From positions 1 to 64,000 of the forward strand of contig JAHJCU010000005.1 in assembly GCA_018812925.1 (NCBI GenBank): a DNA stretch of 64,000 nt, given 5' to 3'. This stretch comes from Candidatus Omnitrophota bacterium. Lineage in GTDB: Bacteria; CAIJMQ01. The position numbers and the translations under genes are program-made. How positions within the stretch are numbered: position 1 is the first letter of the stretch; every line of letters begins with the position of its first letter. The notes under the pieces are model-generated. The model made no database searches. It was not told the DNA's origin and was given only the letters and a program-made list of their open reading frames with translations. Below are positions 2,247 through 26,957 of the stretch, piece by piece.

Positions 2247-3851
2247 TTAAGCAGATTTTAGTAGAGAATCCCAGATTTGTTGCTGTTTTTCCCAGTCTAT
2301 CTCGGAGATAATGGGGCGGAGTTTATATTCAGGAATTCTGGATAGATTCTCATCTTGAGAGAATATAATCTCTTCTTGAATCTTGGGTGAGATGTTTAGC
2401 ATATTAGCGATCTCACAAATCTTTGGAAGCGGAATACCTGACCATTGAACGAGTTGTCTTAGACTGCATTTCTTTTCTTTCAAAATCTTTTCTATTTGAT
2501 GTGCAAGGATAAGGTTTCGTCTTATGGCTGGTTCTTTGGTTATCTGTCCATCTTTGCGTTTATGGTGTGGAATTCGTTTCAGTTCATTGAGTTTTACATC
2601 GAAGCTGTGACTTCTACCATCCTTTTGAAATAAAATCTCAAGTGTTCCATTATTCGCATCATAACTTACCTGTTTGACCAATGATTTAATTATCTGGATT
2701 TTCTCCCCTAATGCAAGATTATCCCAAACGGTTGCTTCAAGTTTTGTTTCCTTTTCAATTTGTCTTAAGCATTCAATAAACTTGTTTTCTATCACCTGGG
2801 CTGCAAGAAGCCTTGTAGGACAGCTCTCATATCCTCGTTTCTGTGCATTCATGCAAAGATAATATTGATATCTGTATTTCCCCTTTCTGCTATAGGCCAA
2901 ATACATGCTGCTATTGCATGCCTTACAGTAAAGTATATGGCTTAATAATCCAATATTCTTTGTAGTGCTGTTTATTTTCTTTTCTCGCCGGTTCTCTGTA
3001 AGCATTTCTTGAGCTTGATTAAATATATCATCAGAAATTATTCTTTCCTGTTCGCCATCATATATCTTGCCGTGATAGCTGACCTTGCCAATATAGAATA
3101 CATTCCTTAATATTCGTTGAATACTTGTACTAGTGAATTTAACATTTCCTAGTTTCTCATCTTTCAGTGTAGTGAATGTTTTAGTCTTGCAGCCTTTGTT
3201 ATTTAAATCTATAGCTACAGATAGAAGTGAGCGTTTTTCAATGTAAAGTCTGAAGATTTCTTTTACGAGTTGGGCTTCTTCTTTATTGATTAAGAGCTTA
3301 TGATTAATTCTATCCAAATCATAACCTAAGGGTGGCCTTCCACCAATCCATTTACCTTTCTTCTTGGCAGCACCCATCTTGTCTCGGGTTCGTTCACTGA
3401 TAATCTCTCGCTCAAACTGAGCGAAAGAGAGAAGTATATTCAAAGTAAGTCGTCCCATCGAAGTGTTGGTATTAAATGCTTGGGTTACTGAAACAAATGC
3501 AACATTCTGTTTATCAAAGAATTCTAAGAGCTGGCTGAAATCAAGAAGTGAACGTGAAAGTCTATCAACCTTATATACTAATACACAATTAATCTTACCT
3601 TCTTTGATATCAGTCATGAGTTTCTGCAGGGCAGGACGGTCAGTATTTGCACCTGTATAGCCGGCATCATCGTACTGTTCTGGTAAAATCACCCATCCTT
3701 CTGATTTCTGGCTTTGAATGTAGTTCTCTGCAGATTCTCGCTGGTTATCTAATGAAGTAAACTCCTGCTCCAGCCCTTCAGAAGTAGATACACGTGTATA
3801 TATGGCACAGTTAATCTTTTTCTTTTCTTGTTTGGATTTCTTTTCCATCAA
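2247..3851 (-). CDS. Large serine recombinase (site-specific integrase)
   Basis: 534 residues with the three-part architecture of large serine integrases. The N-terminal resolvase domain has AIYTRVSTS (catalytic serine about residue 22) and YKVDRLSRS. The recombinase domain contains GKWIGGRPPLGYD. A cysteine-bearing zinc ribbon (YCKACNSSMYLAYS, later CPTRLLAA) is followed by a coiled region and an extended HTH-like C-terminal tail with SLRQLVQWSGIPLPKICEIANML. Such enzymes cut both att sites with a 5'-phosphoserine link and integrate or excise elements. It is translated leftward, right next to the left repeat and 8 bases after a DUF2924 gene, the usual pairing in integrative elements. It is most likely the enzyme that moved this island. 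Confidence 0.93.
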   Translation of the reverse strand: MMEKKSKQEKKKINCAIYTRVSTSEGLEQEFTSLDNQRESAENYIQSQKSEGWVILPEQYDDAGYTGANTDRPALQKLMTDIKEGKINCVLVYKVDRLSRSLLDFSQLLEFFDKQNVAFVSVTQAFNTNTSMGRLTLNILLSFAQFEREIISERTRDKMGAAKKKGKWIGGRPPLGYDLDRINHKLLINKEEAQLVKEIFRLYIEKRSLLSVAIDLNNKGCKTKTFTTLKDEKLGNVKFTSTSIQRILRNVFYIGKVSYHGKIYDGEQERIISDDIFNQAQEMLTENRREKKINSTTKNIGLLSHILYCKACNSSMYLAYSRKGKYRYQYYLCMNAQKRGYESCPTRLLAAQVIENKFIECLRQIEKETKLEATVWDNLALGEKIQIIKSLVKQVSYDANNGTLEILFQKDGRSHSFDVKLNELKRIPHHKRKDGQITKEPAIRRNLILAHQIEKILKEKKCSLRQLVQWSGIPLPKICEIANMLNISPKIQEEIIFSQDENLSRIPEYKLRPIISEIDWEKQQQIWDSLLKSA

Positions 3852-4854: not shown

Positions 4855-6078
4855 TTAGATCGGAAGAGAAATTTGAATTTCATTATTTACTTCTACCCTT
4901 TCCTTAGCCTGGCATTCTATCTTTAGTAAACGCGAGGCAAAAAATTTAATAACTTCGACGTTAATCGAATTGCCCATTTGCTTATAGATAGTTTTTTCAT
5001 TCACATTAAACCTAAAGTCATCTGGAAAACTCTGGAGACGCGCAACTTCTCTAGGAGTTAATCTTCTACGCAACTTTCCAACAATAGACGTTTGAGTAAT
5101 CGCTACCAAGCCTGGGAAATATGTCGGCCTTTTTACTCTAATCCCTGACGGCCTTATTTGGATAATCAGTTTCCACAAGTCTCGCTCTGAATCCTGTGCC
5201 TGCCACTCGAAACTTCTTCTGCTAGGCTTAATGTTTTGAAGGTTATGATGTTTTTTAAGCCATCGATCAATAAAATTCTTATTGCGTATATAAAATTCCC
5301 GGTTTTTCCGCAGAAATTCTTGTTTCCATTTTGGCAAGTCTGAGTAATCATATTCACCCTTAAATTCATCTGCCCAAATAGGAAAGCCAGGCAAAGGCCC
5401 TTTTATTCCTTGAGCAAACTCATTCCAAGTATCAATCAATTTGATTTCATCCTTAGAAAGTGCATAAGGAGCCAAATTTACATTTTCGCCTTTCTTATGC
5501 AATATATCTTCTATGTTACAGGACACTGAGCGCGATAAGCCCTTAAAGTATATCCCACTATTTGGCGGTAGGTCTTTTCTTTGGGCCAAAATGATAACTC
5601 TCTCTCTAAATTGAGGAATGCCTAAAAGATGTGGACTAAAAATAATGGGGGGATTCTGGAAAGAATACCCTAAGTGATTAAGGTTATCTGAAATAACTCT
5701 CCAAGTATTTCCCTTGTCATGCCCAATCAAATTTCTAACGTTTTCAAGAATAAGATATGATGGGCGGCATTCCTTTATAATCCTTACGATATCTAAAAAA
5801 AGAGTTCCTCGTGTATCATCTAACCCTAGACGATCTCCAGCTTTTGAGAAAGACTGGCAAGGAAAGCCCGCGCACAAAACATCGTGACCAGGGATATCTC
5901 TTTCGTTTATTTTAGTGATATCTCCGTATGGCTCCATACCAAAGTTATCTTTATAAACCGCTCGACACGAATCATCAATATCGCATGCAAATACACACTC
6001 ACCTCCCAATGAACTAAGTGCTAAGTGAAATCCACCAACACCACAGAAAAGGTCAATAAATTTAAACTTTCTTAACAT
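4855..6078 (-). CDS. DNA (cytosine-5-)-methyltransferase
   Basis: 407 residues with the ordered motifs of the C5 family. Motif I is FIDLFCGVGGFHLAL (residues 7-21). Motif IV is GFPCQSFS with catalytic C74. Motif VI is LENVRNL, VIII is QFRERVIILA. A variable target-recognition region follows, then motif IX RRLTPREVARLQSFPDDF and motif X KQMGNSINVEVI. It would transfer a methyl group from SAM to cytosine C5 at a specific site. It lies in a leftward operon with Vsr, a candidate nuclease and a HTH controller, so it is the modification half of a type II restriction-modification system. The recognition sequence cannot be read from the protein. Full length, no missing motif. Confidence 0.95.
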   Translation of the reverse strand: MLRKFKFIDLFCGVGGFHLALSSLGGECVFACDIDDSCRAVYKDNFGMEPYGDITKINERDIPGHDVLCAGFPCQSFSKAGDRLGLDDTRGTLFLDIVRIIKECRPSYLILENVRNLIGHDKGNTWRVISDNLNHLGYSFQNPPIIFSPHLLGIPQFRERVIILAQRKDLPPNSGIYFKGLSRSVSCNIEDILHKKGENVNLAPYALSKDEIKLIDTWNEFAQGIKGPLPGFPIWADEFKGEYDYSDLPKWKQEFLRKNREFYIRNKNFIDRWLKKHHNLQNIKPSRRSFEWQAQDSERDLWKLIIQIRPSGIRVKRPTYFPGLVAITQTSIVGKLRRRLTPREVARLQSFPDDFRFNVNEKTIYKQMGNSINVEVIKFFASRLLKIECQAKERVEVNNEIQISLPI

Positions 6079-6146: not shown

Positions 6147-6575
6147 TCATTGCGGTTGATTTAACTTATTTAACCTTTTTATTACTAAATTGGCTTGCTT
6201 TGTAGGATTACTTAATATGTCTATATCCCAAATACGTAATACTTTCCAGCCCATTTTTCTCAGTATCTTATTATTTTTAGAATCCCGTTTTTTGTTTCCT
6301 TGAATCTTTTTATCCCAATATGCTCCCTTAGAGCCTAACTTAAAATACTTAGGATGGCCGTGCCACCAAACCCCATCAACAAAAATTGCTAGTTTATTTC
6401 GCTTAAAAGCCAAATCTGGCTTACCCGGCAAATTTACAACATGACAACGCCATCCCCTAACTCCCATCGACCAAAGAGTTTTTCTAAAAATAATTTCTGG
6501 CTTTGTATTTACACTTTTAATACTCGACATTACTCTATATCTAGTTTCTGGATCTAGTTTGTGCTTTTTTACCAT
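6147..6575 (-). CDS. vsr: Very short patch repair endonuclease (Vsr)
   Basis: 142 residues, normal family length. The Vsr core is clear: MSSIKSVNTKPEIIFRKTLW, then GKPDLAFKRNKLAIFVDGVWWHGHP (catalytic Asp about residue 54, zinc/metal and wedge histidines following), KRDSKNNKILRKMGWKVLRIWD. Vsr nicks beside T:G mismatches produced by deamination of 5-methylcytosine, protecting the genome from the mutagenic effect of the neighbouring methyltransferase. It lies upstream of dcm in the same leftward operon. Presence of Vsr is good evidence that the neighbouring enzyme really is a C5 modifier. Confidence 0.93.
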   Translation of the reverse strand: MVKKHKLDPETRYRVMSSIKSVNTKPEIIFRKTLWSMGVRGWRCHVVNLPGKPDLAFKRNKLAIFVDGVWWHGHPKYFKLGSKGAYWDKKIQGNKKRDSKNNKILRKMGWKVLRIWDIDILSNPTKQANLVIKRLNKLNQPQ

Positions 6576-8112: not shown

Positions 8113-9081
8113 ATGAACCGCACCTTATATTTCAATTATATTGAAGAAAAGCTTAGTACACTTGCTTGTAGAATTGATTCAAGAGGTAAATTAAATATTT
8201 TAGATCTACATGTTCACTCTGAGAATTTCTATCGAGATTTCTTCAACAAATTGTTTGGGTGGCAATTAGACAACTTAAACAAAAAATTGCAAAATGTAGA
8301 AGCTATTGACCTGGTTGATCATGTTAATAAATTAGTCATTCAAGTTTCAGCAACCAACACCGAAACTAAAATAGAATCTGCTCTAGCCAAAGGGATAATC
8401 AAAAAATACCATGATTATACTTTTAAGTTTATTTCAATTTCTAAAGACGCTAGCAACTTAAGAAAAAAGACATACACAAATCCTCATAGTATTAATTTTA
8501 TTCCCCTAAGCGATATCTTTGATACCAAATCAATACTAGATAAGATATTTTCATTGACTGTTAATGAACAAAGGAATATCTATTCTTTTATAAGAGAAGA
8601 ATTGGGTGGAGACGTCGATGTTGTTAAGTTAGATTCGAATCTTGCTACAATCATAAATATTTTGTCAAAAGAAGATTGGGACAACCAGGGACAATCTATT
8701 TCAATAAACAGTTTTGAAATTGATCGCAAGATTACATATAACAATTTGAATGCTGCGAGGTATATAATAGACGATTATAAAATTCATTACAGCCGGGTTG
8801 ATAAGAAATATACCGAATTTGATGCTTCAGGTGTAAATAAAAGTAGTTCTGTCTTAGCAGTAATAAGAAAAGAATACATTGAAAATTTTGATGTAAAAAG
8901 TGCGGATGAACTTTTTCTTATTGTCAGAGACAACATTTATAAAAAGATACTTGAAAGTGCTAATTATGTTCCAATACCAACTGAAGAATTGGAGCTTTGT
9001 GTAAATATTCTTGTCGTAGATGCTTTTATAAGATGTAAAATTTTTGAAGATCCTAAAAATTACAATTATGCTGCTACCTGA
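8113..9081 (+). CDS. SMEK-domain protein, effector component of an ABC-3C system
   Basis: 322 residues. The N-terminal half matches the SMEK domain: a helix YFNYIEEKLSTLACRIDSRG, LNILDLHVHSENFYRDFFNKLFGW, then LVDHVNKLVIQVSATNTETKIESAL and an alpha/beta part with KFISISKDA. The C-terminal part is mostly helical, as in ABC-3C C-terminal domains. SMEK proteins occur as the effector of predicted three-component ABC ATPase conflict systems; the activity of SMEK is not established, and nuclease-like action is inference in the literature. It overlaps the next gene by 14 bases, and that one overlaps the ATPase by 10, so all three are translationally coupled. Confidence 0.82.
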   Translation: MNRTLYFNYIEEKLSTLACRIDSRGKLNILDLHVHSENFYRDFFNKLFGWQLDNLNKKLQNVEAIDLVDHVNKLVIQVSATNTETKIESALAKGIIKKYHDYTFKFISISKDASNLRKKTYTNPHSINFIPLSDIFDTKSILDKIFSLTVNEQRNIYSFIREELGGDVDVVKLDSNLATIINILSKEDWDNQGQSISINSFEIDRKITYNNLNAARYIIDDYKIHYSRVDKKYTEFDASGVNKSSSVLAVIRKEYIENFDVKSADELFLIVRDNIYKKILESANYVPIPTEELELCVNILVVDAFIRCKIFEDPKNYNYAAT

Positions 9082-9295
9082 TAATATACATCCCGAACAT
9101 AGTATTTATTATAATGGCGCAATTGTTTTACAAGTTTTGCAAGATCAGACAAAACAAAACCTATTAGACTTATATCAGAATGTAAAACAAAAGCGGGATA
9201 TGACATTTTCTGTTTTTGTATTGAGTTTAGATTGGTTGTTTTTATTAAATGTTGCAGTAATAAACAATAATGGAAAGGTTGAATTATGCTCTTGA
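9068..9295 (+). CDS. ABC-3C middle component, MC6-like
   Basis: 75 residues from the ATG at 9068 (MLLPDNIHPEHSIYYNGA). This start is preferred over the earlier one at 9044 because the family begins with LPxxxHP-like residues. The C-terminal half has RDMTFSVFVLSLDWLFLLNVA, matching the small middle components (MC6 type) of ABC-3C systems, which bridge ATPase and effector. It sits between the SMEK gene and the ATPase with overlaps on both sides. Its small size makes the family call depend partly on context. Confidence 0.78.
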   Translation: MLLPDNIHPEHSIYYNGAIVLQVLQDQTKQNLLDLYQNVKQKRDMTFSVFVLSLDWLFLLNVAVINNNGKVELCS

Positions 9296-11010
9296 AATCA
9301 TTAACTATATCAAGTGATGATAAAATAATTCGCAATATTACTTTCCGAAAGGGAATTAATTTGATTGTTGATGAAAGTAAAGGACAAATAACTGGTAATA
9401 ACGTTGGCAAAACAACGATTTTAACGTTAGTAGATTTTTGTTTAGGTGCAGATCCAAAGGATATTTATGTTGACCCTGAAACAAAGAAGGATGAATATCT
9501 ATTGGTAAAAGAATTTCTCATAGAAAACGAGGTTTTAATTACACTTGTTCTCTCTGAGAATTTAGATAATGAAAAATCTAATAAAATTATAATTGAAAGA
9601 AATTTCTTATCCAACAAAGATTTAATTCGTAGAATAAATGGGAAAAATTTCACGGAAGAAGAATTTGAAATAGAACTCCAAAAATTAATATTTCCAGATT
9701 ATCTTGCTAAAAAACCTACATTTAGACAAATTATATCTCATAACATTCGCTACAAAGACTTAAATATTAATAATACTTTGAGAACGCTTGATAGGTATAC
9801 CTCTTACGCAGAATATGAGACTTTATATTTGTTTTTATTGGGGTGTGAATTCAATGAAGGGCATTCCAAACAGGGAATTTTATCAAAATTAAAACGGGAA
9901 GATACTTATAAAAGCAGGCTTGAAAAACATCAAACAAAAACAGCTTATCAAACTGCACTTACTATTATTGAAAGCGAGATTCTTGAACTTAATAAACAGA
10001 AAGCTAACTTAAATTTAAATGAGAATTTTGAAGCTAATTTAGATGAATTAAATAAACTTAGATATAAGATTAATAAAACAAGTTCCGAACTTAGTAAATT
10101 AAATATTAGAAGGGATATTATTCTTGATGCTAAAAAAGAATTGGATTCCAGTAAATCGGAGATAGACTTACAGCAATTAAAATTAATTTATCAGCAAGCA
10201 ACTAATCGGATTAGCGGAATTCAAAAGACATTTGAGGAATTGGTTAACTATCATAATCAGATGATTGTCGAAAAAGTAAAATTTATTACAAAAGAATTAC
10301 CTAGTTTAGAAAAGGATATCCAAAGCAGAAAGGAATTTTTAATGAAGTTGTTGTCAGAGGAAAAATCTTTGACTTCTGTCATTAGTAAGAGTGATTCATT
10401 TGAAGATTTGGAAAACTTAATTAGTAAATTGAATGGAAAATTCAGACAAAAAGGAGAGTATGAAAATATCATTCGACAATTAGAAGAAGTAGAGGGCAAT
10501 ATTAAAGAACTAAACAATCAGCTAAATGAGATTGATAATGAGTTGTTTTCAGACAATTTTGAACAGATAGTAAAGACTCAGATTAATAAGTTTAACAAAC
10601 ATTTTGCTTCTATTTCTAATGATTTATATGGAGAGAAGTATGCATTAAAGTATGATATTGTTACTAATAAAAAAAATCAACGCTTGTATAAATTTAGTGC
10701 TTTCAATGCAAATATTGGCTCAGGAAAGAAACAAGGCGAAATTTCCTGTTTTGATATTGCATATACACTATTTGCAGATGAAGAAAACATTCCCTGTTTA
10801 CATTTCTTGTTAAATGACAAAAAAGAATTAATGCATGATAATCAGTTGGTTAAAATTGCAGAACTTGTTAACCAAAATAAAATCCAATTTGTTGCTTCCA
10901 TTCTAAAAGATAAACTTCCCGAAGAATTAAATAATGAGGATTATTTTGTAGTTAAACTTTCCCAAAAAGATAAGCTATTTAGGATAGAAAATTATTCAGA
11001 ACTAAGTTGA
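9286..11010 (+). CDS. DUF2326-type ABC-3C ATPase
   Basis: 574 residues of SMC/RecN-like layout. The N-terminal half-ATPase has Walker A GNNVGKTT near residue 40. Next come two long coiled-coil arms (about 210-450) rich in Lys, Glu, Leu and Asn. The C-terminal half has GSGKKQGEISCFDIAY in place of a canonical signature and FLLNDKKE as a Walker B-like strand. This is the ATPase of ABC-three-component systems, thought to sense nucleoprotein or phage structures and license the effector. It is third in the coupled SMEK-MC6-ATPase operon. The FLLND form differs from the more usual FLxHD of relatives. Complete and unbroken. Confidence 0.87.
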   Translation: MLLKSLTISSDDKIIRNITFRKGINLIVDESKGQITGNNVGKTTILTLVDFCLGADPKDIYVDPETKKDEYLLVKEFLIENEVLITLVLSENLDNEKSNKIIIERNFLSNKDLIRRINGKNFTEEEFEIELQKLIFPDYLAKKPTFRQIISHNIRYKDLNINNTLRTLDRYTSYAEYETLYLFLLGCEFNEGHSKQGILSKLKREDTYKSRLEKHQTKTAYQTALTIIESEILELNKQKANLNLNENFEANLDELNKLRYKINKTSSELSKLNIRRDIILDAKKELDSSKSEIDLQQLKLIYQQATNRISGIQKTFEELVNYHNQMIVEKVKFITKELPSLEKDIQSRKEFLMKLLSEEKSLTSVISKSDSFEDLENLISKLNGKFRQKGEYENIIRQLEEVEGNIKELNNQLNEIDNELFSDNFEQIVKTQINKFNKHFASISNDLYGEKYALKYDIVTNKKNQRLYKFSAFNANIGSGKKQGEISCFDIAYTLFADEENIPCLHFLLNDKKELMHDNQLVKIAELVNQNKIQFVASILKDKLPEELNNEDYFVVKLSQKDKLFRIENYSELS

Positions 11011-11142: not shown

Positions 11143-12906
11143 ATGACAATGATTGTAGGTTGTCATTTTAAAGATGGCGCTGTAATAGTTGCTGATTCAA
11201 GAGTAACATCAAAGGAATTCCCAGCTGGCAAAAAGATTTTAAGCGATACAGCTCAAAAGATTATTCCTTTAGGCCTTAAATTAGCAATCGCTTTTGCTGG
11301 GGATGTCCCCTTAGCAAATGACATTATTTTTCAGATAAGAAAGCGTATTACAAAAAACAAACGTTTAAGAATACCTTCGAAAATTGCAACTGATCTGCCT
11401 AGAGTGGCACAATATTGTTATAGAAAATATAAAGAGACTAATAAGAATAGAGAATGGTCTGTAAGTTTACTTCTAGGAGCAATAAATCCCAATGGCACGA
11501 TATTATTATGGGCATATGAATCACCTTCTTTTAATATAAAGATAATTAGAGATGATTTCGTTGTTCTTGGGTCGGGGGCAGTAGTTTTCTCATATTTGAA
11601 AGAAAACTACCCAAGAATTAGTAAGACACCCAATGTTCTTAAAGACAGGGCCAATCAATTGATGATAGGGTTAGATTCTGAATTACAAAAACATGGTATT
11701 GATACTGTTGGAGGTCTTTTCCAAATCATATTACTTACGACTCAAGGTATAAGCCCAATGACTCATGGGTTTATGGATCTAGATCCGAGAAGCCCTGGTT
11801 ATGCAAAGGAAATAACAATCCAAAAAGGGAGATGGGTTCAAACTGATCTTAAGACAGCAACAGAAATTAAGTTATTTTCACCCTTAGAAATTACAAGGAT
11901 CACACAAAAAGAAGAACGGTTTTATGATTATGAAATGCCCAAAGGGGGCAAAAAAGAGCCCTTTTGGTATCTTAACTATTTCATAACATGTCTTAAAACT
12001 GAGAGAGATGTTCTAAAAACAGAATTTGAGGGAGTTTTTGCCCAGTCTGCAGCTGTCAATTACCCTATCTCTATACCGATAACGGCTTCCCTAGGTTTTT
12101 GGGGTTCTGCTGGAGATCATGAGTTACTATTTCGCTTGGATAGTAGCACAGAAATTACGACTATCCATAAAAAAGCTATTCACATAGAATATATGCCAGA
12201 ACAGTTTGAAATAGATAGTGTGCTGATGTTGAAGATTAGTGAGCCAGGTCCTGTTTTTCTTGAATGTTTAATCGATGGACAATTCCTTGGTCGTAAGGCC
12301 CTTTACTTTGGCAAATTAGCACAGTTGTCATTTAAAAATGAAAAAGAATCTTCTCTTTTCATCGAGCAATCTTTGAAAGAATTTATAGAAGAACATCGAA
12401 AATGTAATGATAGTATTCTCAATAATAGGAAAGCGATTCTTGATTTTTATGTATTATGCGAAGACTGTAATTGTGTGGGGACAAAATACACATTTCTGAA
12501 AGAAATTAAGGCTGTTTATTGGAAATCATATCCTCTATCTTTAAAATTATTCATAGCAACTGCATTAAGATCATGTAAGGGTGAGCATTCTATTCATATA
12601 GACCTGGTTAATGCAGCAACAAGGGAAACATCAAAAGTAACATCCACACATTTTACTTCTACTTCAGACTGTATTGTAACTCCAATTCTAGGGGAATCAA
12701 TTGTCAAAATCCCTAACCCAGGATTATATTTTTTAAATATTCACGTTGATGATGAATTTGTTGGGAGCATTATACTCCCTGCTGAAAACGATAAACCAAA
12801 GTATTCTTATTCTTTACTGAAAGAAGATCTTTCTCGTATTCAATCAGGAGAACTTTTGGCTTTATTAAAAAGGGCTCCCTTAAAAGGCGAAAAGTCTTTA
12901 AAATAG
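11143..12906 (+). CDS. Proteasome-beta-like Ntn hydrolase fused to DUF6941-like domains
   Basis: 587 residues. After removal of the first Met, the chain starts T-M-I-V-G and continues KDGAVIVADSR. With that Thr as 1, Asp17 falls in ADSR exactly as in proteasome beta subunits. A lysine in SDTAQKII aligns with Lys33 after a 5-residue insertion, so the Thr-Asp-Lys triad looks intact. LAIAFAGD follows as the usual Gly strand. The Ntn domain runs to about residue 230. The rest looks like two beta-sandwich repeats of DUF6941 type, marked by EPGPVFLECLIDGQFLGR and NPGLYFLNIHVDDEFVGS. No signal peptide, so cytosolic. It follows the ABC-3C operon by 132 bases, in its own unit. Substrate unknown. Confidence 0.72.
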   Translation: MTMIVGCHFKDGAVIVADSRVTSKEFPAGKKILSDTAQKIIPLGLKLAIAFAGDVPLANDIIFQIRKRITKNKRLRIPSKIATDLPRVAQYCYRKYKETNKNREWSVSLLLGAINPNGTILLWAYESPSFNIKIIRDDFVVLGSGAVVFSYLKENYPRISKTPNVLKDRANQLMIGLDSELQKHGIDTVGGLFQIILLTTQGISPMTHGFMDLDPRSPGYAKEITIQKGRWVQTDLKTATEIKLFSPLEITRITQKEERFYDYEMPKGGKKEPFWYLNYFITCLKTERDVLKTEFEGVFAQSAAVNYPISIPITASLGFWGSAGDHELLFRLDSSTEITTIHKKAIHIEYMPEQFEIDSVLMLKISEPGPVFLECLIDGQFLGRKALYFGKLAQLSFKNEKESSLFIEQSLKEFIEEHRKCNDSILNNRKAILDFYVLCEDCNCVGTKYTFLKEIKAVYWKSYPLSLKLFIATALRSCKGEHSIHIDLVNAATRETSKVTSTHFTSTSDCIVTPILGESIVKIPNPGLYFLNIHVDDEFVGSIILPAENDKPKYSYSLLKEDLSRIQSGELLALLKRAPLKGEKSLK

Positions 12907-13076: not shown

Positions 13077-14549
13077 ATGAGAAATAAACTCCTCACAAAA
13101 TCCAATTATGTAATCGGTCTACAGTGCCCTAAATACCTGTGGACTAAGCTTTACGAAAAAGAAAAAATCCCCCCTTATGATGCTTCTACATTGCATAGGT
13201 TTGAAGAAGGACATTTGGTTGATAAATTCTCAAGAGACTTCTTCCCTGCGGGTACTGATATTCCTACTGAGGATTTTATGGGTAATATCAAGCAAACCAA
13301 GGAACTTCTTGCCCAACGTAAATTAATATTTCAGGCAGGTATTCTACACGACCCGATCTATTCAAGAATCGATATCCTAAATCCCACTCACCATAACGTA
13401 TGGGATATTATCGAAGTTAAAAGTTCGACTAAAGTAAAACCCGAGCATTTGGAAGATGTTTCTTTTCAGAAATATTGTTGCGAGAAGTCAGGATTAAAGA
13501 TTGGAAGATGTTTTCTTATGCATGTAAATAATGAGTATATTAAACAAGGCGAAATTAACCCTAAGGATTTTTTTAATTTAGAAGACATTACTGCTGAAGT
13601 TAATGCAGCAATGCTAGGGATAGAACAAAGAATCGATAATATGCTTAAGACTATTGGTTCCGAACAATCTCCTGACATATCTATAGGCAAACATTGCAAT
13701 AACCCATATGAGTGCCCTTTGAAAGGATCTTGTTGGAATTTTCTACCCCCAGGGCATATTTTTGAATTATATTATGGTGGTAGCAAATCATTACAATTGT
13801 TTGGAAAAGGCATTCATTCTATAAAAGATATTCCAGCAAATGTTCCCTTAACTGAGCGACAAATGATCCAAAAAGAATGTGAATCAACCGGAAAACCTTA
13901 TATTTCTGAGATCAATATTAAAACATTTGTGGATGGACTGGATTACCCATTACATTATTTAGATTTTGAAACTTTTGACCCCTGTATACCAATTTTTGAT
14001 GGTACAAGACCATATCAGAAAATTCCCTTTCAGTTTTCATTACATATAGTGGCAGATGAAAACTCTAAACCCCGGCACTATTATTTTTTAGCTGATGGCG
14101 TTAGTGATCCAAGACCTAAATTTTTATCTTCATTAAAAGATGTACTTGGTAATTCGGGAAGCATAATTGTTTATAACCAGGTCTTTGAGAAAACCATCCT
14201 AAAAGAGCTTGGAGAAGCTTTCCCGGATTATAAAGAATGGGTAGGGGATGTTTCCGATAGGATTAAAGATTTGTTAGATGTTTTTAAATCTTTTGATTAT
14301 TATCATCCTAACCAAAGAGGCTCAGCTTCCATTAAGAGCGTATTACCTGCATTAACCCAAATAAGCTATGAAGGAATGAATATATCCGACGGTGAATATG
14401 CCAGCCTTTCTTTCTTAGAAATGGCTTATAGTAATATTACCAAAGAACAAAAAGATAAAATTAGAGAAGATTTAAGCCAGTACTGCAGTTTAGATACAGA
14501 GGGTATGCTTTTGATTGTTAAGAAACTAAAAGAATTAACAGAAAAATAG
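13077..14549 (+). CDS. DUF2779 protein: Cas4/RecB-like nuclease plus DEDD exonuclease
   Basis: 490 residues. The N-terminal part is Cas4/RecB-like: C17 in GLQCPKYLW, D99 in SRIDIL, E113-V-K115 in IIEVKSS, and a cysteine trio in CNNPYECPLKGSCW around residues 206-218. C17 plus these three give the usual 4Fe-4S staple. The C-terminal DUF2779 part starts LHYLDFETFDP (about residue 294) with the D-x-E of RNase H-fold 3'-5' exonucleases; YNQVFEKTIL and LDTEGM supply later acidic/His positions. It would cut or trim nucleic acid. The downstream PD-(D/E)xK gene follows after 10 bases. It lies among defence genes, so a defence role is likely but unproven. Confidence 0.82.
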   Translation: MRNKLLTKSNYVIGLQCPKYLWTKLYEKEKIPPYDASTLHRFEEGHLVDKFSRDFFPAGTDIPTEDFMGNIKQTKELLAQRKLIFQAGILHDPIYSRIDILNPTHHNVWDIIEVKSSTKVKPEHLEDVSFQKYCCEKSGLKIGRCFLMHVNNEYIKQGEINPKDFFNLEDITAEVNAAMLGIEQRIDNMLKTIGSEQSPDISIGKHCNNPYECPLKGSCWNFLPPGHIFELYYGGSKSLQLFGKGIHSIKDIPANVPLTERQMIQKECESTGKPYISEINIKTFVDGLDYPLHYLDFETFDPCIPIFDGTRPYQKIPFQFSLHIVADENSKPRHYYFLADGVSDPRPKFLSSLKDVLGNSGSIIVYNQVFEKTILKELGEAFPDYKEWVGDVSDRIKDLLDVFKSFDYYHPNQRGSASIKSVLPALTQISYEGMNISDGEYASLSFLEMAYSNITKEQKDKIREDLSQYCSLDTEGMLLIVKKLKELTEK

Positions 14550-15693: not shown

Positions 15694-16956
15694 ATGGAAA
15701 TAAGAAAAGTGGGTATTTCTGAAATACGGCCAGCGGCACACAATCCACGCAAGGATCTTCAGCCGACCGACCAAGAATATAGGCAGATCGAGGCAAGTAT
15801 TGAAGGGTATGGACTTGTAGAGCCCTTAATCTGGAATAAAAGGACTAAGAATCTTGTGGGAGGTCATCAAAGATTCAAAATCCTTGTGCGTAAAGGTTAT
15901 AAAGAAATAGAAGTAAGTGTAGTCGACCTTGATTTAGAGAGAGAAAAGGCACTGTCAATAGCTCTCAATAAGGTGCAAGGAAAATGGAACATGGATAAAC
16001 TATCAGTTTTAGTGGATGAGCTGACTAAAATCCCTGATTTTAATATTGAATCAATCGGTTTCAGTCCTTCGGAAATCAGCCAACTATTCGATAGATATTT
16101 AGAGCCTAAAGACGCAGACGATTTCGATTTTGAAGGAGCTCTTAATTCTATAAAAGAGCCTGTTACCAAGAAGGGTGATTTAATAGAACTAGGCTCGCAT
16201 AGGATTCTTTGTGATGATTCTTCTAATCCAGAAAACCTAAAACTATTACTAGCAGATCAGCAAGTTAGCCTTTTAAATACCGATTTTCCGTATAACGTCG
16301 ACTACTATGGAGGTAACCGTCCGCATGCTAAAGGTCGCCCTAAAAAATCTCGCCAATGGGAACGCATCTATTCCGACAACATGCAACAGGATGAATATGA
16401 GGCTTGGATGCGTAAAGTACTCGAAGGTGTCAAAGCGCATCTTAAGCCAGGTGTTGCAATATATATTTGGCAGGGTCATCGACAGATACCCCCAACATAT
16501 CAAATATTACTTGAGCTTGGGTTTCACATTTCTTCAATAGTGTGTTGGCTCAAAGAATCTGCAGCCATTTCATACGGCGACTACTCATTCAGGACGGAAC
16601 ATGCACTTTATGGCTGGCTAGAGGGCGCGTCACATTACTTTGCCGGTAAACCGGGTGAATGTAACGTCTGGGAAGTAAAACGAGACCTGACCAAGAATTA
16701 CCAGCACCCAACTCAGAAACCGGTCGAGCTTGCCCAACGCGCAATAAGCAACAGCTCTCAACGTAAAGATATAGTTTTAGATACTTTTTTGGGATCGGGT
16801 TCAAGCTTGATTGCAGCCGAGAGTTTAGATAGGTATTGTTACGGTCTTGAAATAGACTCTCGCTATTGCGATGTAATTGTTAAACGCTATATTGCCTATG
16901 TCGGCAAGGATAAAGTTCCCAGCGATCTCGTAAAACGTTATATGAAGGAGGATTAA
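15694..16956 (+). CDS. ParB-domain/DNA adenine or N4-cytosine methyltransferase fusion
   Basis: 420 residues. Residues 1-130 are a ParB/Srx domain: VGISEIRPAAHNPRK, IEASIEGYGLVEPLIWN, LVGGHQRFKIL. From about 180 comes an amino-methyltransferase: motif IV NTDFPYNVDY, later YQHPTQKP, and the SAM motif I VLDTFLGSGSSLIAAE followed by YGLEIDSRYCDVIVKRY. Such fusions are common in phages and prophage-like elements and methylate host or phage DNA. Motif IV reads DFPY in place of the expected DPPY, which is unusual for a catalytic loop. Two bases separate it from the next gene, which is followed by terminase, so the three are one operon. Confidence 0.88.
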   Translation: MEIRKVGISEIRPAAHNPRKDLQPTDQEYRQIEASIEGYGLVEPLIWNKRTKNLVGGHQRFKILVRKGYKEIEVSVVDLDLEREKALSIALNKVQGKWNMDKLSVLVDELTKIPDFNIESIGFSPSEISQLFDRYLEPKDADDFDFEGALNSIKEPVTKKGDLIELGSHRILCDDSSNPENLKLLLADQQVSLLNTDFPYNVDYYGGNRPHAKGRPKKSRQWERIYSDNMQQDEYEAWMRKVLEGVKAHLKPGVAIYIWQGHRQIPPTYQILLELGFHISSIVCWLKESAAISYGDYSFRTEHALYGWLEGASHYFAGKPGECNVWEVKRDLTKNYQHPTQKPVELAQRAISNSSQRKDIVLDTFLGSGSSLIAAESLDRYCYGLEIDSRYCDVIVKRYIAYVGKDKVPSDLVKRYMKED

Positions 16957-16958
16957 CA

Positions 16959-17636
16959 ATGAATACTACCAATAATAACAAATCTGAAAATTCGGCTCTG
17001 CAACTACTTCAAGATATTAAATCAGGTACTACCGATCCAAAACTACTTGATAAACAGACCCGTCAACAATGTATAGAAACCCTTTTGGGAGAGGGTTACA
17101 GCTGTTCCCAGATAGCACAAATATTTAAACGTAGCGAAAAAACTATTTCCCGCGACCTTGGAGACATACGACAAAAAAATTCACTGTCACCTAATATTCA
17201 GTTCGCAAAAGAGACAGTCGGTGAATTAGCGACTAAAGCACGCATACATTCCAGTTATCTCATGCGTCTTGCACGTGACAAAGATTCACCAACTGGCAGT
17301 AAGGCAGAAGCGGAGTTTCTTGCATGGCGAGTAGTGAAAGAACTTGTAGAGAAACTCCAAACGCTTGGTTTTCTACCACTTAAACCACAAGAGATATCGG
17401 GTGATATTTATCATCATATCGGTATAGACGAAAGCAGTGAGTCACTGGAAGAAGCAAAGAAGATGCTCTCTGAAATAGAGCTCGTTGCAAAAGACACAAA
17501 CACTTTCAGCCCAGAGCTTGCCGAGAATATAAAAGCCCTCAGTGAACGTATCGAAAAAGCAGAGATTGTCTCTGATGTAAAGAAGGTTGTTGAAAAACAA
17601 AAAGAAACACAAGAGGAGAAAATCAAAAATGAATAA
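16959..17636 (+). CDS. Small-terminase-like HTH protein
   Basis: 225 residues. The N-terminal region has a helix-turn-helix: TLLGEGYSCSQIAQIFKRSEKTISRDLGDIR (about residues 43-75). The middle is helical, and the last 60 residues are acidic/basic coiled coil (EEAKKMLSEIELVAKD, IEKAEIVSDVKKVVEKQKE). A HTH plus oligomerising helices, encoded directly before a large terminase with an 8-base overlap, is the layout of phage small terminase subunits that recognise packaging DNA. Sequence similarity to a known TerS is not obvious to me, so the call rests on architecture and position. Confidence 0.68.
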   Translation: MNTTNNNKSENSALQLLQDIKSGTTDPKLLDKQTRQQCIETLLGEGYSCSQIAQIFKRSEKTISRDLGDIRQKNSLSPNIQFAKETVGELATKARIHSSYLMRLARDKDSPTGSKAEAEFLAWRVVKELVEKLQTLGFLPLKPQEISGDIYHHIGIDESSESLEEAKKMLSEIELVAKDTNTFSPELAENIKALSERIEKAEIVSDVKKVVEKQKETQEEKIKNE

Positions 17637-19263
17637 TCTATCTAAAGATATAATTTCACTAAGACGAAACGAAGCTGAAACTTCTATATATGCTTTTGCA
17701 AAGTTGTATCTTCCCGACCATTTAAAAATTAAACCCTCCAAAGCACATCTTGAAGTGTATGATTTGCTACTGCAGGCTACTCGTGAAAAGAGTAAGAAGA
17801 TAGCTATAGCTGCACCGCGTGATTTCGGCAAATCCACCATGATAACTCTCATCTATGCGATTTACCTTATCTGTTATAACAAAGAGCGTTTCATAGTGAT
17901 TATTTCCAACGTAGAGTCTCAAGCGCAGAAAACACTTGAGAATATCCGCAAGGAACTGACAGAAAATGAGAGATTACAGGAGGATTTCCCCGAGATATTC
18001 GAAAACGAAGGAAGACCAAAACCGCCACGCTGGACACAAAGCGATATCATCACTAGAAACAATATTGAAATACTGGCCCTTGGCTATAACCAGAAAATCC
18101 GGGGAAGGAGACACGGTGCATATCGCCCCGGGCTCATAATATTAGACGATCTTGAACCGGATGCCGGCTGGTCTTCACCCGAGATGGCATCCAAGATGAA
18201 AGACTGGCTAAATAAAGCTGTTTTCAAGGCGGGATCCGAGACTACAAATTACATATTTATGGGAACAATATCACATTGGATTTCAGTGCTCGGGGAATAT
18301 TTACAAGAAGATTCTAACCCCACATGGATCAAACGCAAATATAAGGCTTTGATAGAATGGCCTTCTCATATGAATTTCTGGGCTAGATTCTTCAATATAA
18401 GAGACTCCAAGGAACAGTACAAAGGTAAAAAAGGCATTGAAGGAGCAAATCATTTTTACAATGACAACAAACACATCATGGATGAAGGTGCTGTACTTCT
18501 TTGGCCCGAGAAATGGGACCTTTTAAACCTCATGCAGATGTATGACGATAATAAATTCAGCTTTGCCAGCGAAATGCAGAACGACCCATATAATTTGAGT
18601 GAGATTACATTTGATGTAGATAACTTTAGTTATTGGACTGATGAGTATCCTACAGTGGATGTTCTGTTAAAATTCTTAGGCAGAGATGTCCGATTCTATG
18701 GCGCATGCGATCCTGCTACAGGTAAGAGCAGATTTACAGGCGATTACTCGGCTATAATTATACTGGCCTGTAAGGGTGGATTTTATTATGTAATTGTGGC
18801 TGACATTGCCCGAAGAACTCCTGACAGACTCACCAAGGATATAATCGCTTACGCAAAGCGTTACCCGTTTAGCAAGTTCATAGTAGAATCGAATAATTTT
18901 CAGGAGCTTATGGTGCAATCAGTCGAGAAAGAAGCTAAAGATGCAAGGGTCTCCCCACGAATAGAACGGAAAAATAATAATACAAGAAAGACAGACAGGA
19001 TATTCTCTCTGTATGATTGGGTCAAAAACGGCACTATAAAATTTTCAAAGAATGACAGGTTGCTCTTAGACCAATTCCGTGCATTTCCACAGCAGGGCAA
19101 GAGCGACGATGGCCCTGATGCGCTTGAGATGGCGTTTAAACATGCTCAGAAAAGCCCCCAGATTGATACAAGGGGTCTGTCTATATTAACTCCCATAGTC
19201 AACAACTGGACACCGAGGAACGATGGTATGACTCCAGCGTGGCTTTTAAAGGACTATAAATAA
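17629..19263 (+). CDS. Phage terminase large subunit
   Basis: 544 residues from the ATG at 17629, chosen because AGAGGAG lies just before it and upstream codons are Lys/Arg junk overlapping the previous gene. ATPase: Walker A AAPRDFGKST (61-70), Walker B GLIILDDLE (about 168-175), coupling motif YIFMGTISH. RNase H-fold nuclease: GACDPATGKSRFTGDYSA with its first Asp, FIVESNNF with Glu, and DDGPDALEMA with the last Asp. All catalytic elements are present, so it should be an active packaging motor/nuclease. No portal, protease, capsid or tail gene follows; the next genes are small DNA-binding proteins. It may package with structural proteins of a helper phage, or have another role. Confidence 0.9.
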   Translation: MNNLSKDIISLRRNEAETSIYAFAKLYLPDHLKIKPSKAHLEVYDLLLQATREKSKKIAIAAPRDFGKSTMITLIYAIYLICYNKERFIVIISNVESQAQKTLENIRKELTENERLQEDFPEIFENEGRPKPPRWTQSDIITRNNIEILALGYNQKIRGRRHGAYRPGLIILDDLEPDAGWSSPEMASKMKDWLNKAVFKAGSETTNYIFMGTISHWISVLGEYLQEDSNPTWIKRKYKALIEWPSHMNFWARFFNIRDSKEQYKGKKGIEGANHFYNDNKHIMDEGAVLLWPEKWDLLNLMQMYDDNKFSFASEMQNDPYNLSEITFDVDNFSYWTDEYPTVDVLLKFLGRDVRFYGACDPATGKSRFTGDYSAIIILACKGGFYYVIVADIARRTPDRLTKDIIAYAKRYPFSKFIVESNNFQELMVQSVEKEAKDARVSPRIERKNNNTRKTDRIFSLYDWVKNGTIKFSKNDRLLLDQFRAFPQQGKSDDGPDALEMAFKHAQKSPQIDTRGLSILTPIVNNWTPRNDGMTPAWLLKDYK

Positions 19264-25012: not shown

Positions 25013-25811
25013 TTACGATGGTGACGGCAACAGAATCGGTAAAACAGTGGATGGAGCGAAAACAAAATATATCAACGATGTTGGGCTTGGGCTTGTTCAG
25101 GTGCTGATGGAAACAACTGATGAAGATACGGTTTTGGCTACTTATAATTATGGAAACGATTTGATTTCTTCCATAAACCATACACTATCAACCATAAACT
25201 ATTTTCACTATGATGGTTTGGGAACAGTGCGCCAATTAACCGATGACGCAGAGGCGGTTGTGGCGGAATATACTTATGAAGCATTCGGAACATTAATTGC
25301 AAGCACAGGTGCTACAACCAATGCCTACGGCTTCACAGGGGAACAGCAGTTTGGAGAGGCGGATAACTTGGTATTCTTGAGAGCGAGGTATTATGATTCG
25401 AGGATAGGGAGGTTTATATCAAGAGATCCGATTGGGTATCGAGGAGGTATTAATCTATATGTATATTGTGATAACAACCCAATAAATTTAATAGATCCAT
25501 ACGGCAAAATGGGAGTAGTTGGGAGTATTATTTCTATTCCTCCAGGAGTAAGTAAATGGTTAAAGGGGGTTCAATTATTTGCATGTTCTGGTTGTTTAGG
25601 ATGTTTAGCGGGGACAGAAATTGGGTGTATAGGAACTCCAAATTGGGATGAGTGCGTAAGAGATACACTAAAAGATTATTGGGATGATGTACAAGAAGCA
25701 TCTAGCAACCCAGGATGTGCTACGGGAAAGAATTATCATAGCCTTGCGTGTGTAGGACTTTGCGCTGCTTGTATACCAAACCTATTTCCAACTTTCCCCG
25801 GATTATTATAA
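25011..25811 (+). pseudogene. Orphan Rhs C-terminal cassette 1
   Basis: In frame from the repeat boundary: RYDGDGNRIGKTVDG, YHYDGLG-like FHYDGLGTVRQLTDD, EYTYEAFG, GFTGEQQ, and the end-of-core motif RARYYDSRIGRFISRDPIGYRGGINLYVYCDNNPINLIDPYG. About 100 residues of variable tip follow, rich in Cys and Gly and without a motif I can name. The N-terminal shell-forming part of the Rhs protein is missing, so this is an orphan tip cassette, not a working toxin by itself. An internal ATG at 25047 could start translation. It is followed by a small membrane protein, the expected immunity position, and by a second cassette sharing about 370 bases. Confidence 0.8.
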
Positions 25812-25816
25812 ATATC

Positions 25817-26143
25817 ATGAAAGAATCTAATCCTCTGAAAGCTAACCACATGTCACCGAGCGAAAAAGGTAAATCACTTTCATCGTTAGTAAATCTGTTT
25901 TTTGGTTTTTTATTTATCATTCTAGGTATGCTTACTATATTATTCAAATATCCTCTATTGCCTAAAATGCCAGCAGAAGGTAGCTTTCTTTTCTTTATCG
26001 CTAATTTTTTACTTATAACAGGATTAATTGCTGAGATATTAGAGAAAGTAATACTAAAGTCTTTCTCTTGGTGGAATTTGACTAAAATTATTACAGGTAT
26101 AGTATTACTTGAAATTTGGATATATATGTTTGGTATAAAATAG
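25817..26143 (+). CDS. Small membrane protein, candidate immunity protein 1
   Basis: 108 residues from the ATG at 25817; upstream codons in the same frame lie inside the Rhs tip and are ignored. Three hydrophobic helices: NLFFGFLFIILGMLTILF, GSFLFFIANFLLITGLIAEI and KIITGIVLLEIWIYMF. It lies 5 bases after the Rhs tip 1 stop and before cassette 2, exactly where immunity genes stand in Rhs arrays. A membrane immunity protein suggests a membrane-acting toxin tip, but the tip itself is unclassified. Confidence 0.65.
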   Translation: MKESNPLKANHMSPSEKGKSLSSLVNLFFGFLFIILGMLTILFKYPLLPKMPAEGSFLFFIANFLLITGLIAEILEKVILKSFSWWNLTKIITGIVLLEIWIYMFGIK

Positions 26144-26146
26144 ATA

Positions 26147-26957
26147 TATAAACGATGTCGGGCTTGGGCTTGTTCAGGTGCTGATGGAAACTGACGACAC
26201 CGGGGATGCCGTTCTGGCTACTTATAATTATGGAAACGATTTGATTTCAGCTATAAACCATACACTATCAACCATAATAAACTATTATCATTACGATGGA
26301 TTGGGCAGTGTGAGACAGCTAACCGATGACACAGAAGCGGTAGCTGCAGAATATACTTATGATGCTTTTGGCAACTTAATCGCTTCTTCGGGTAGTGGAG
26401 AAAATTCCTACGGCTTTACTGGGGAACAGCAGTTTAATGAGGCGGATAATTTGATTTTCTTACGCCATCGTTATTATAGTCCATCTATTGGTAGATTCAT
26501 AAGTAGAGACCCATTTCATGGGTGTATCGTATCACCAATAACACGCAATCGATATCCTTATTGTATGAATAATCCTGTAAATTTTATAGATCCCGCAGGA
26601 TTGCTTGCAACACATGGTAATTGGTGTGGCCCTGGTCACAGTGCAGGCGAAAGTGGAAAACCATCAGAAAGTGATTGGACAGCTAATAATGCTGTTGATT
26701 GGCTTGATCAGATATGCAAAGAGCATGATGCATGCTTTCAAGGAGTTGACCCAGCGACTGGTAAAAGTGAATGTACAGACGACAAAAAGAATAAGAATAA
26801 ATGCAATGAAGAAATGTGTGGTAAGTTATTGAGTCCTGTGAATATAGTCCGTGGTGCAACTGGATGGGGTTTAGAAAACAAGCTTACAGGTAGAACAACT
26901 TATACAGCAGCAATTGCCGCATTTTGTTTCCCGGGAGGAATAACGCCTTTTTGGTAA
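26147..26957 (+). pseudogene. Orphan Rhs C-terminal cassette 2 with phospholipase A2-like tip
   Basis: Repeats the Rhs end of cassette 1 at DNA level from about 26147 (NDVGLGLVQVLMET ... HRYYSPSIGRFISRDPF ... YCMNNPVNFIDPAG). The tip then differs: GNWCGPGHSAG, and DWLDQICKEHDACFQG about 35 residues later. WCGPG and CxxHDxC are the calcium loop and His-Asp catalytic site of phospholipase A2-like domains; later paired cysteines (ECTDDKK, KCNEEMC) fit its disulfides. It would attack membrane lipids. ATG at 26178 opens the frame. As in cassette 1 the N-terminal Rhs part is absent, so expression probably needs recombination into a complete rhs gene. Confidence 0.8.

Follow-up and report, generated by a model that had tools for sequence, protein, structure and literature searches.

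How might a self-contained protease choose its substrates without an unfoldase? The question is raised by an ORF of 587 amino acids (positions 11143-12906, + strand, ATG start; ORF listing and translation) in the window, by which we mean the whole stretch of 64,000 nucleotides that was analysed. The protein joins a proteasome beta-like Ntn domain to a C-terminal region of two DUF6941 units and is laid out as follows.

11143..12906, + strand: proteasome-like Ntn hydrolase with two DUF6941 units, 587 aa (ORF, PF00227 and PF22091, orthologues)
11146..11892, + strand: Ntn (proteasome beta-like) domain, residues 2-250 (AlphaFold pLDDT about 90 over most of it; VIA Z 20.9)
11974..12297, + strand: first DUF6941-like beta-sandwich, residues 278-385 (DUF6941 profile, weak in the window protein and clear in orthologues)
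12340..12420, + strand: helix between the sandwiches, residues 400-426, poorly conserved (low-confidence model; 1 of 38 columns invariant among four members)
12445..12771, + strand: second DUF6941 unit, residues 435-543 (Pfam 28.3 bits; profile i-E 6e-10)

The N-terminal part of the protein can be placed in the proteasome family. Residues 3-159 match PF00227 (Proteasome) in Pfam with an E-value of 5.8e-11 and 42.8 bits, against a cut-off of 22.4. An AlphaFold model of the full protein, built with 20 alignment rows, gives the Ntn domain a pLDDT of about 90 and predicts helices at residues 55-71, 78-99, 146-161, and 166-183, which correspond to H1-H4, and a further helix at 247-262 after the Ntn core. 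Foldseek matched the predicted model to 20S beta at E 4.9e-9 (TM to target up to 0.81), and VIA aligned residues 1-214 with 20S beta at Z 20.9 (rmsd 2.3, 178 aligned) and the model with Anbu at Z 20.7 over 198 residues. The predicted model has the four-layer alpha-beta-beta-alpha arrangement (Z 20.9 to 20S beta), in agreement with the Ntn fold that the original prediction proposed. Together, the PF00227 score and the fold match to 20S beta and Anbu at Z 20.4-20.9 put the family assignment far beyond chance. Solved structures matched with phmmer were proteasome subunits only, at marginal E-values. The best NCBIfam model was the archaeal proteasome beta model TIGR03634, for which the protein scores 31.4 bits against an equivalog cut-off of 224. 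PADLOC returned no match for the window protein or for its orthologue at locus L078.

Close relatives of the window protein are rare. We identified five full-length members in four independent loci (the window gene, L203/L078, L199, L237, and L241), with L199 and L203 counted as one locus because they share one 85%-identical block; the other four members are 28-45% identical to the window protein. An Omnitrophota bacterium encodes one that is 45% identical over its whole length (L078, the same gene as L203:3450-5195), recovered with a degenerate nucleotide pattern covering the start of the Ntn domain, and the same pattern recovered L151, a single-domain relative in a Wolfebacteria genome. A two-row profile run on 315 Omnitrophota genomes yielded the second orthologue (L199:8037-9788), a profile search of 286 Patescibacteria genomes yielded L237, and a scan of viral contigs yielded L241:4792-6510 (573 aa), whose contig carries a large serine recombinase and flanking genes that by eye look Firmicute-like. 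The L078 and L237 proteins also exceed the PF00227 cut-off, and the Ntn-DUF6941 gene is present in at least three bacterial phyla.

No homologue was found in 72,556 plasmids and 50,697 phages by tblastn, in genome contigs and viral contigs by exact 8-mers, or in 386 diverse sampled genomes, where the weak matches that were read belonged to 20S beta or a DUF6941 protein or showed no relationship. When 386 genomes were screened with PF00227, most matches were HslV or had the size of 20S proteins, with few longer frames; in viral contigs, the first pattern returned only AAH-like phage peptidases and a stricter one returned nothing. The six other genomes of the window's phylum also contain no homologue, so the window gene is probably horizontally carried. 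In a tree of 41 Ntn domains, whose deep support is weak, the fused proteins group with single-domain relatives from Omnitrophota and Patescibacteria.

The residues expected of a Thr peptidase were located at the following positions.

11146..11148, + strand: Thr1 codon (residue 2, the putative nucleophile after Met removal; T invariant in five full-length members)
11194..11196, + strand: Asp17 equivalent (D18, in ADSR; invariant in the 20-row alignment)
11257..11259, + strand: Lys33 equivalent (K39; invariant in the 20-row alignment)
11299..11301, + strand: Gly47 oxyanion-hole equivalent (G53; alignment)

The triad described in the original prediction (Thr1, Asp17 within ADSR, and a Lys33 displaced by a 5-residue insertion) is present at residues 2, 18, and 39, with K39 falling 5 residues later than in 20S beta. 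Homologues lacking these positions had been named as evidence against the prediction; all five full-length members keep the triad, and in proteasome numbering T1, D17, K33, G47, and S129 (S144 in the window protein) are invariant in 5/5. The Ser169 position is Gly in all five, and the Asp166 position is Asn in L199. Residue 45, which in 20S subunits forms the floor of the S1 pocket, corresponds to F51 in the window protein; the full-length members and their closest relatives have an aromatic residue here, either Phe or Tyr. Single-domain relatives have T or S as the nucleophile in the alignment, two of them carrying Ser1. Judged from these residues, the Thr peptidase active site appears intact and would support catalysis.

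An in-frame TGA lies two codons 5' of the ATG of the window gene, which rules out a propeptide for this protein, and none is evident in the Ntn-DUF6941 sequences as a group. A 16-residue upstream extension in L203 and L199 was considered as a propeptide and is unlikely to be one: its sequence diverges strongly between them, the ATG is preceded by an AAGG, and there is a stop there in the window. Methionine aminopeptidase, by its established specificity, should trim proteins that start with Met-Thr or Met-Ser.

The C-terminal region is assigned to DUF6941 (PF22091) by sequence profiles. Pfam gives a single match in the window protein (residues 435-545, 28.3 bits against a cut-off of 27) and matches the second unit of the L078 protein at 28.0 bits against the same cut-off. 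We built a separate profile from stand-alone DUF6941 proteins and ran it as small searches (e.g., 3 sequences). With this profile, the second unit of the window protein scores i-E 6e-10 and the first (278-385) is weak at i-E 0.004. Both units are matched in L203, L199, L237, and L241; they are clear in the L203 protein (276-382 and 429-538), and in the small searches the first unit reaches i-E 7.1e-8 in L203, 9.5e-7 in L199, 7.9e-6 in L237, and 8.9e-7 in L241. The original proposal of two DUF6941 units is upheld in this form, with one unit seen by Pfam and both by the stand-alone-derived profile. In the structure models, this part appears as two beta-rich modules and a joining helix, at pLDDT values mostly below 60 whether it was modelled within the full-length protein or separately, and the separate model was of too low confidence for use in a structure search; the assignment of two units therefore rests on sequence.

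Both halves of the protein are under purifying selection. Between L203 and L199, dN is 0.056 and dS is 0.56 (dN/dS 0.10), and the two parts, Ntn and C-terminal, have similar ratios. In an alignment of four members, the Ntn domain has 20% invariant columns, the two DUF6941 units have 28% and 26%, and the connecting helix has 3% (1/38); conservation of the DUF6941 units thus equals or exceeds that of the Ntn domain. These values indicate that the C-terminal domains are functional and not a decayed tail.

We next consider the genes around the window gene, which include the following.

2247..3851, - strand: large serine recombinase of the island (PF00239/PF07508)
4855..6078, - strand: C5 cytosine methyltransferase (PF00145)
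6147..6575, - strand: Vsr endonuclease (PF03852)
8113..9081, + strand: ABC-3C effector, SMEK_N and CTD10 (Pfam)
9044..9295, + strand: ABC-3C middle component MC6, given as the ORF, with the true start probably inside (PF20293, E 1.5e-28)
9286..11010, + strand: ABC-3C ATPase (DUF2326; PADLOC PDC-M68B) (Pfam, PADLOC)
13077..14549, + strand: DUF2779 protein with a Cas4-like nuclease region (Pfam, PADLOC)
15694..19263, + strand: phage-type ParB-methylase, HTH protein, and terminase large subunit (PHROGs)

The Ntn gene lies 132 bases downstream of the ABC-3C ATPase gene. No AAA+ unfoldase gene was seen in the window and no HslU gene lies beside 11143-12906; the genome's own HslV-HslU pair is on another contig (C11). 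The description of a defence island without an unfoldase gene therefore holds for the window, given the ABC-3C genes and the methylase and Vsr genes nearby. We considered the Ntn gene as a fourth ABC-3C component and rejected this: the trio of effector, MC6, and ATPase is complete without it, and the other loci compared have no ABC-3C gene in common with the window. The ABC-3C system is probably a separate system.

Defence genes adjoin the Ntn-DUF6941 gene in three of the four independent loci. In L199, it is preceded by HsdS, PD-Lambda-5 A, PD-Lambda-5 B/D12 methylase, and an HsdR fused to an S24 peptidase domain, and in L203 it is directly downstream of the same HsdR-S24; the HsdR-Ntn pair forms one conserved block in which similarity stops just after the Ntn stop codon. 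In L237, the genes beside it encode a DUF4365 protein (nuclease), a protein of the MUG113/T5orf172 type, and a PbeA-like ResIII helicase. In L241, it lies in a recombinase island whose neighbours were judged by eye. The neighbouring defence system differs at each locus and no partner is common to all, so no single partner is implied. As a control, 20 further proteasome-like loci were examined, and their 101 neighbours yielded few PADLOC hits at 1e-8; the Ntn-DUF6941 loci are few and were inspected by hand. The association with defence genes is suggestive only, and a gene carried on an island may serve other ends than defence. DUF6941 itself was also considered as a defence marker and is not supported as one: no Ntn gene lies near any of 18 stand-alone DUF6941 loci (0/18), and in the four that were read the neighbours are mostly ordinary-looking. 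The domain by itself thus gives no hint of defence.

Several known systems resemble the window protein in part. The original prediction held that bacterial proteasome relatives are normally single-domain ring formers; the extra domains are not a unique departure from this, since Fuchs et al. (2021) described 22 further proteasome-like families of which several have extra C-terminal domains (PMC8665760). Such domains on proteasome-like proteins are thus already known in general. Like the window protein, the homologues of Fuchs, Alva and Lupas (2021) (WPH, PMI-1 to 6, PHD, ACC, DAH, and others) have a beta-like core with Thr1, Asp17, Lys33, and Gly47, no propeptide, and no unfoldase partner, and some share the presence of extra C-terminal domains; compared by description, they differ in that C-terminal DUF6941 is not mentioned there and no suggestive gene contexts are reported, whereas defence genes recur here. 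For most of the many bacterial proteasome-like families no role is known, and no telling gene contexts are given for the 22 (PMC8665760). In the literature consulted, we found no description of a DUF6941 pair on a proteasome-like protein or of its recurrent defence context, the families of Fuchs et al. being compared by description.

Among the classical relatives, Anbu has a core as close to the predicted fold as that of 20S beta (Z 20.7), and the window protein has its C-terminal helix (247-262) after this core; however, Anbu is single-domain and 17% identical or less, whereas tandem sandwiches follow the core in all five members. HslV is likewise a proteasome-like peptidase, but the window protein has no ATPase unfoldase as its partner, and the genome's HslV is encoded separately, next to HslU. 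Archaeal 20S beta supplies the best NCBIfam model (TIGR03634) and a predicted fold match at Z about 20, but the window protein falls far below the TIGR03634 cut-off and has no propeptide. Two-unit stand-alone forms of DUF6941 (PF22091) exist, like the pair seen here; elsewhere DUF6941 proteins are single or tandem and lack an Ntn domain. Two of these tandem proteins (L205:6520-7377 and L206:7266-8111) have an apparent signal peptide, and DUF6941 may therefore also work outside the cytoplasm.

From the fold prediction, the conserved catalytic residues, the two conserved DUF6941 units, the purifying selection, and the repeated defence neighbourhood, we infer catalysis, assembly, substrate capture, and a defence role. 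Our preferred reading, which we hold tentatively, is that the protein is a catalytically competent, unfoldase-independent Ntn Thr peptidase whose DUF6941 pair recruits the substrate and which serves as an island-carried accessory of defence. Methionine aminopeptidase would expose Thr1 with no need for a propeptide or self-cleavage, and Thr1 would then attack with the help of Asp17 and Lys33. Helices H1-H4 would probably mediate assembly of the Ntn domain into a full or partial ring like those of HslV, BPH, or Anbu. The sandwich pair may point outwards, capture particular proteins or peptides in place of an unfoldase, and bring them to the chamber or active site. The recurrent restriction and conflict-system neighbours point to a gene that moves on mobile or defence islands, most likely as an accessory of the defence arsenal; as a targeted protease, it might act during infection by eliminating a protein of the phage or host, or it might control a neighbouring system or nuclease. 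The protease effector suggested in the original prediction is likewise possible. With the defined architecture, intact active site, and recurrent context of this gene, a function for an orphan proteasome homologue becomes directly testable. We regard as doubtful the bolder proposal of an undescribed family of proteasome-type proteases in bacterial immunity, in which a Thr peptidase assembly would be activated in infection, choose its targets through DUF6941 without an ATPase, and be coupled to restriction or ABC-3C; if true, this would give an orphan proteasome homologue a role in defence.

The best-surviving alternative, possible if rather unlikely, is that the gene is ordinary cargo of the islands: it would encode an active proteasome-like peptidase whose role is physiological or of another kind, and would simply hitch-hike on recombinase islands beside restriction genes. 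The change of defence partner from locus to locus would fit this, as would the single-domain relative L151, which by eye lies between ftsW-like and murG-like genes, and the 22 families without telling contexts (PMC8665760). However, restriction or defence genes that were tested are near neighbours at 3/4 independent full-length loci, and in the two Omnitrophota HsdR and the Ntn gene form one conserved block, in which sequence similarity extends only slightly past the Ntn stop.

Regulation of a neighbouring nuclease system, through degradation or maturation of HsdR or of the ABC-3C effector, seems improbable to us. ClpXP degrades HsdR in restriction alleviation, and by analogy the Ntn protein could act on the HsdR-S24 encoded directly upstream of it in L199 and L203, or on the ABC-3C system 132 bases upstream in the window; yet no partner is common to all loci, and the ABC-3C system in the window is already complete.

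Connectase-like activity as a specific protein ligase or transpeptidase, in place of proteolysis, is more improbable still. Connectase shows that a proteasome-like fold can ligate (PMC8665760), and it shares with the window protein the proteasome-like fold, the lack of an unfoldase, and, in some cases, an extra C-terminal domain; binding domains of this kind would suit a ligase's specificity. Connectase, however, is without H1-H2, and two additional helices are inserted between its S3 and S4, whereas the window model has both helices (55-71 and 78-99) and a short insertion of only 5 residues.

A self-processing sensor, as suggested originally, or an inactive domain acting only as a scaffold is very improbable: the Gly at Ser169 and the variable Asp166 would fit it, but Thr1, Asp17, Lys33, and Gly47 are kept across distant members, and self-processing is not needed in a protein without a propeptide whose Thr1 ordinary methionine aminopeptidase would expose.

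We record several further observations on these loci and their relatives. The type I HsdR of L199:4362-7952 and L203:49-3351, directly upstream of the Ntn-DUF6941 gene, carries its S24 (LexA-type) peptidase domain at the C terminus. At L241:1-2023, by eye, the serine recombinase lies a short way into a truncated spore-coat-catalase-like (CotJC-like) gene, an arrangement expected if the island integrates there. The ParB-methylase, HTH, and terminase triad of the window (15694-19263) recurs at L201:4047-7705 with 54, 42, and 43% identity, there directly before a Ser1 Ntn gene. Two similar adjacent ORFs at window positions 25047-26957 contain Rhs/YD-type repeats ('YDGLGTVRQLTDD...') and by eye look like Rhs-like gene fragments.

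Single-domain proteasome-like genes from distant phyla (L092:2811-3380, L103:4802-5290, L132:5544-6008, L139:6384-6956, and L077:3638-4147) have a winged-helix/Panacea-like gene of 150-190 aa directly upstream, often touching, and the two may form a conserved two-gene module; the three such neighbours examined with PADLOC all gave weak matches to PDC-M19A (E 9e-10 to 6e-12). The L200:8323-9033 protein combines just the N-terminal half of an Ntn domain (1-132, 44% identity), triad included, with an unrelated C terminus; its gene lies beside a nucleotidyltransferase-HEPN pair. In two Patescibacteria genomes, a 130-aa family (L238:9210-9602 and L239:7858-8250, 62% identity) adjoins Ntn genes, and L238 also has an AbiV-type HEPN gene nearby.
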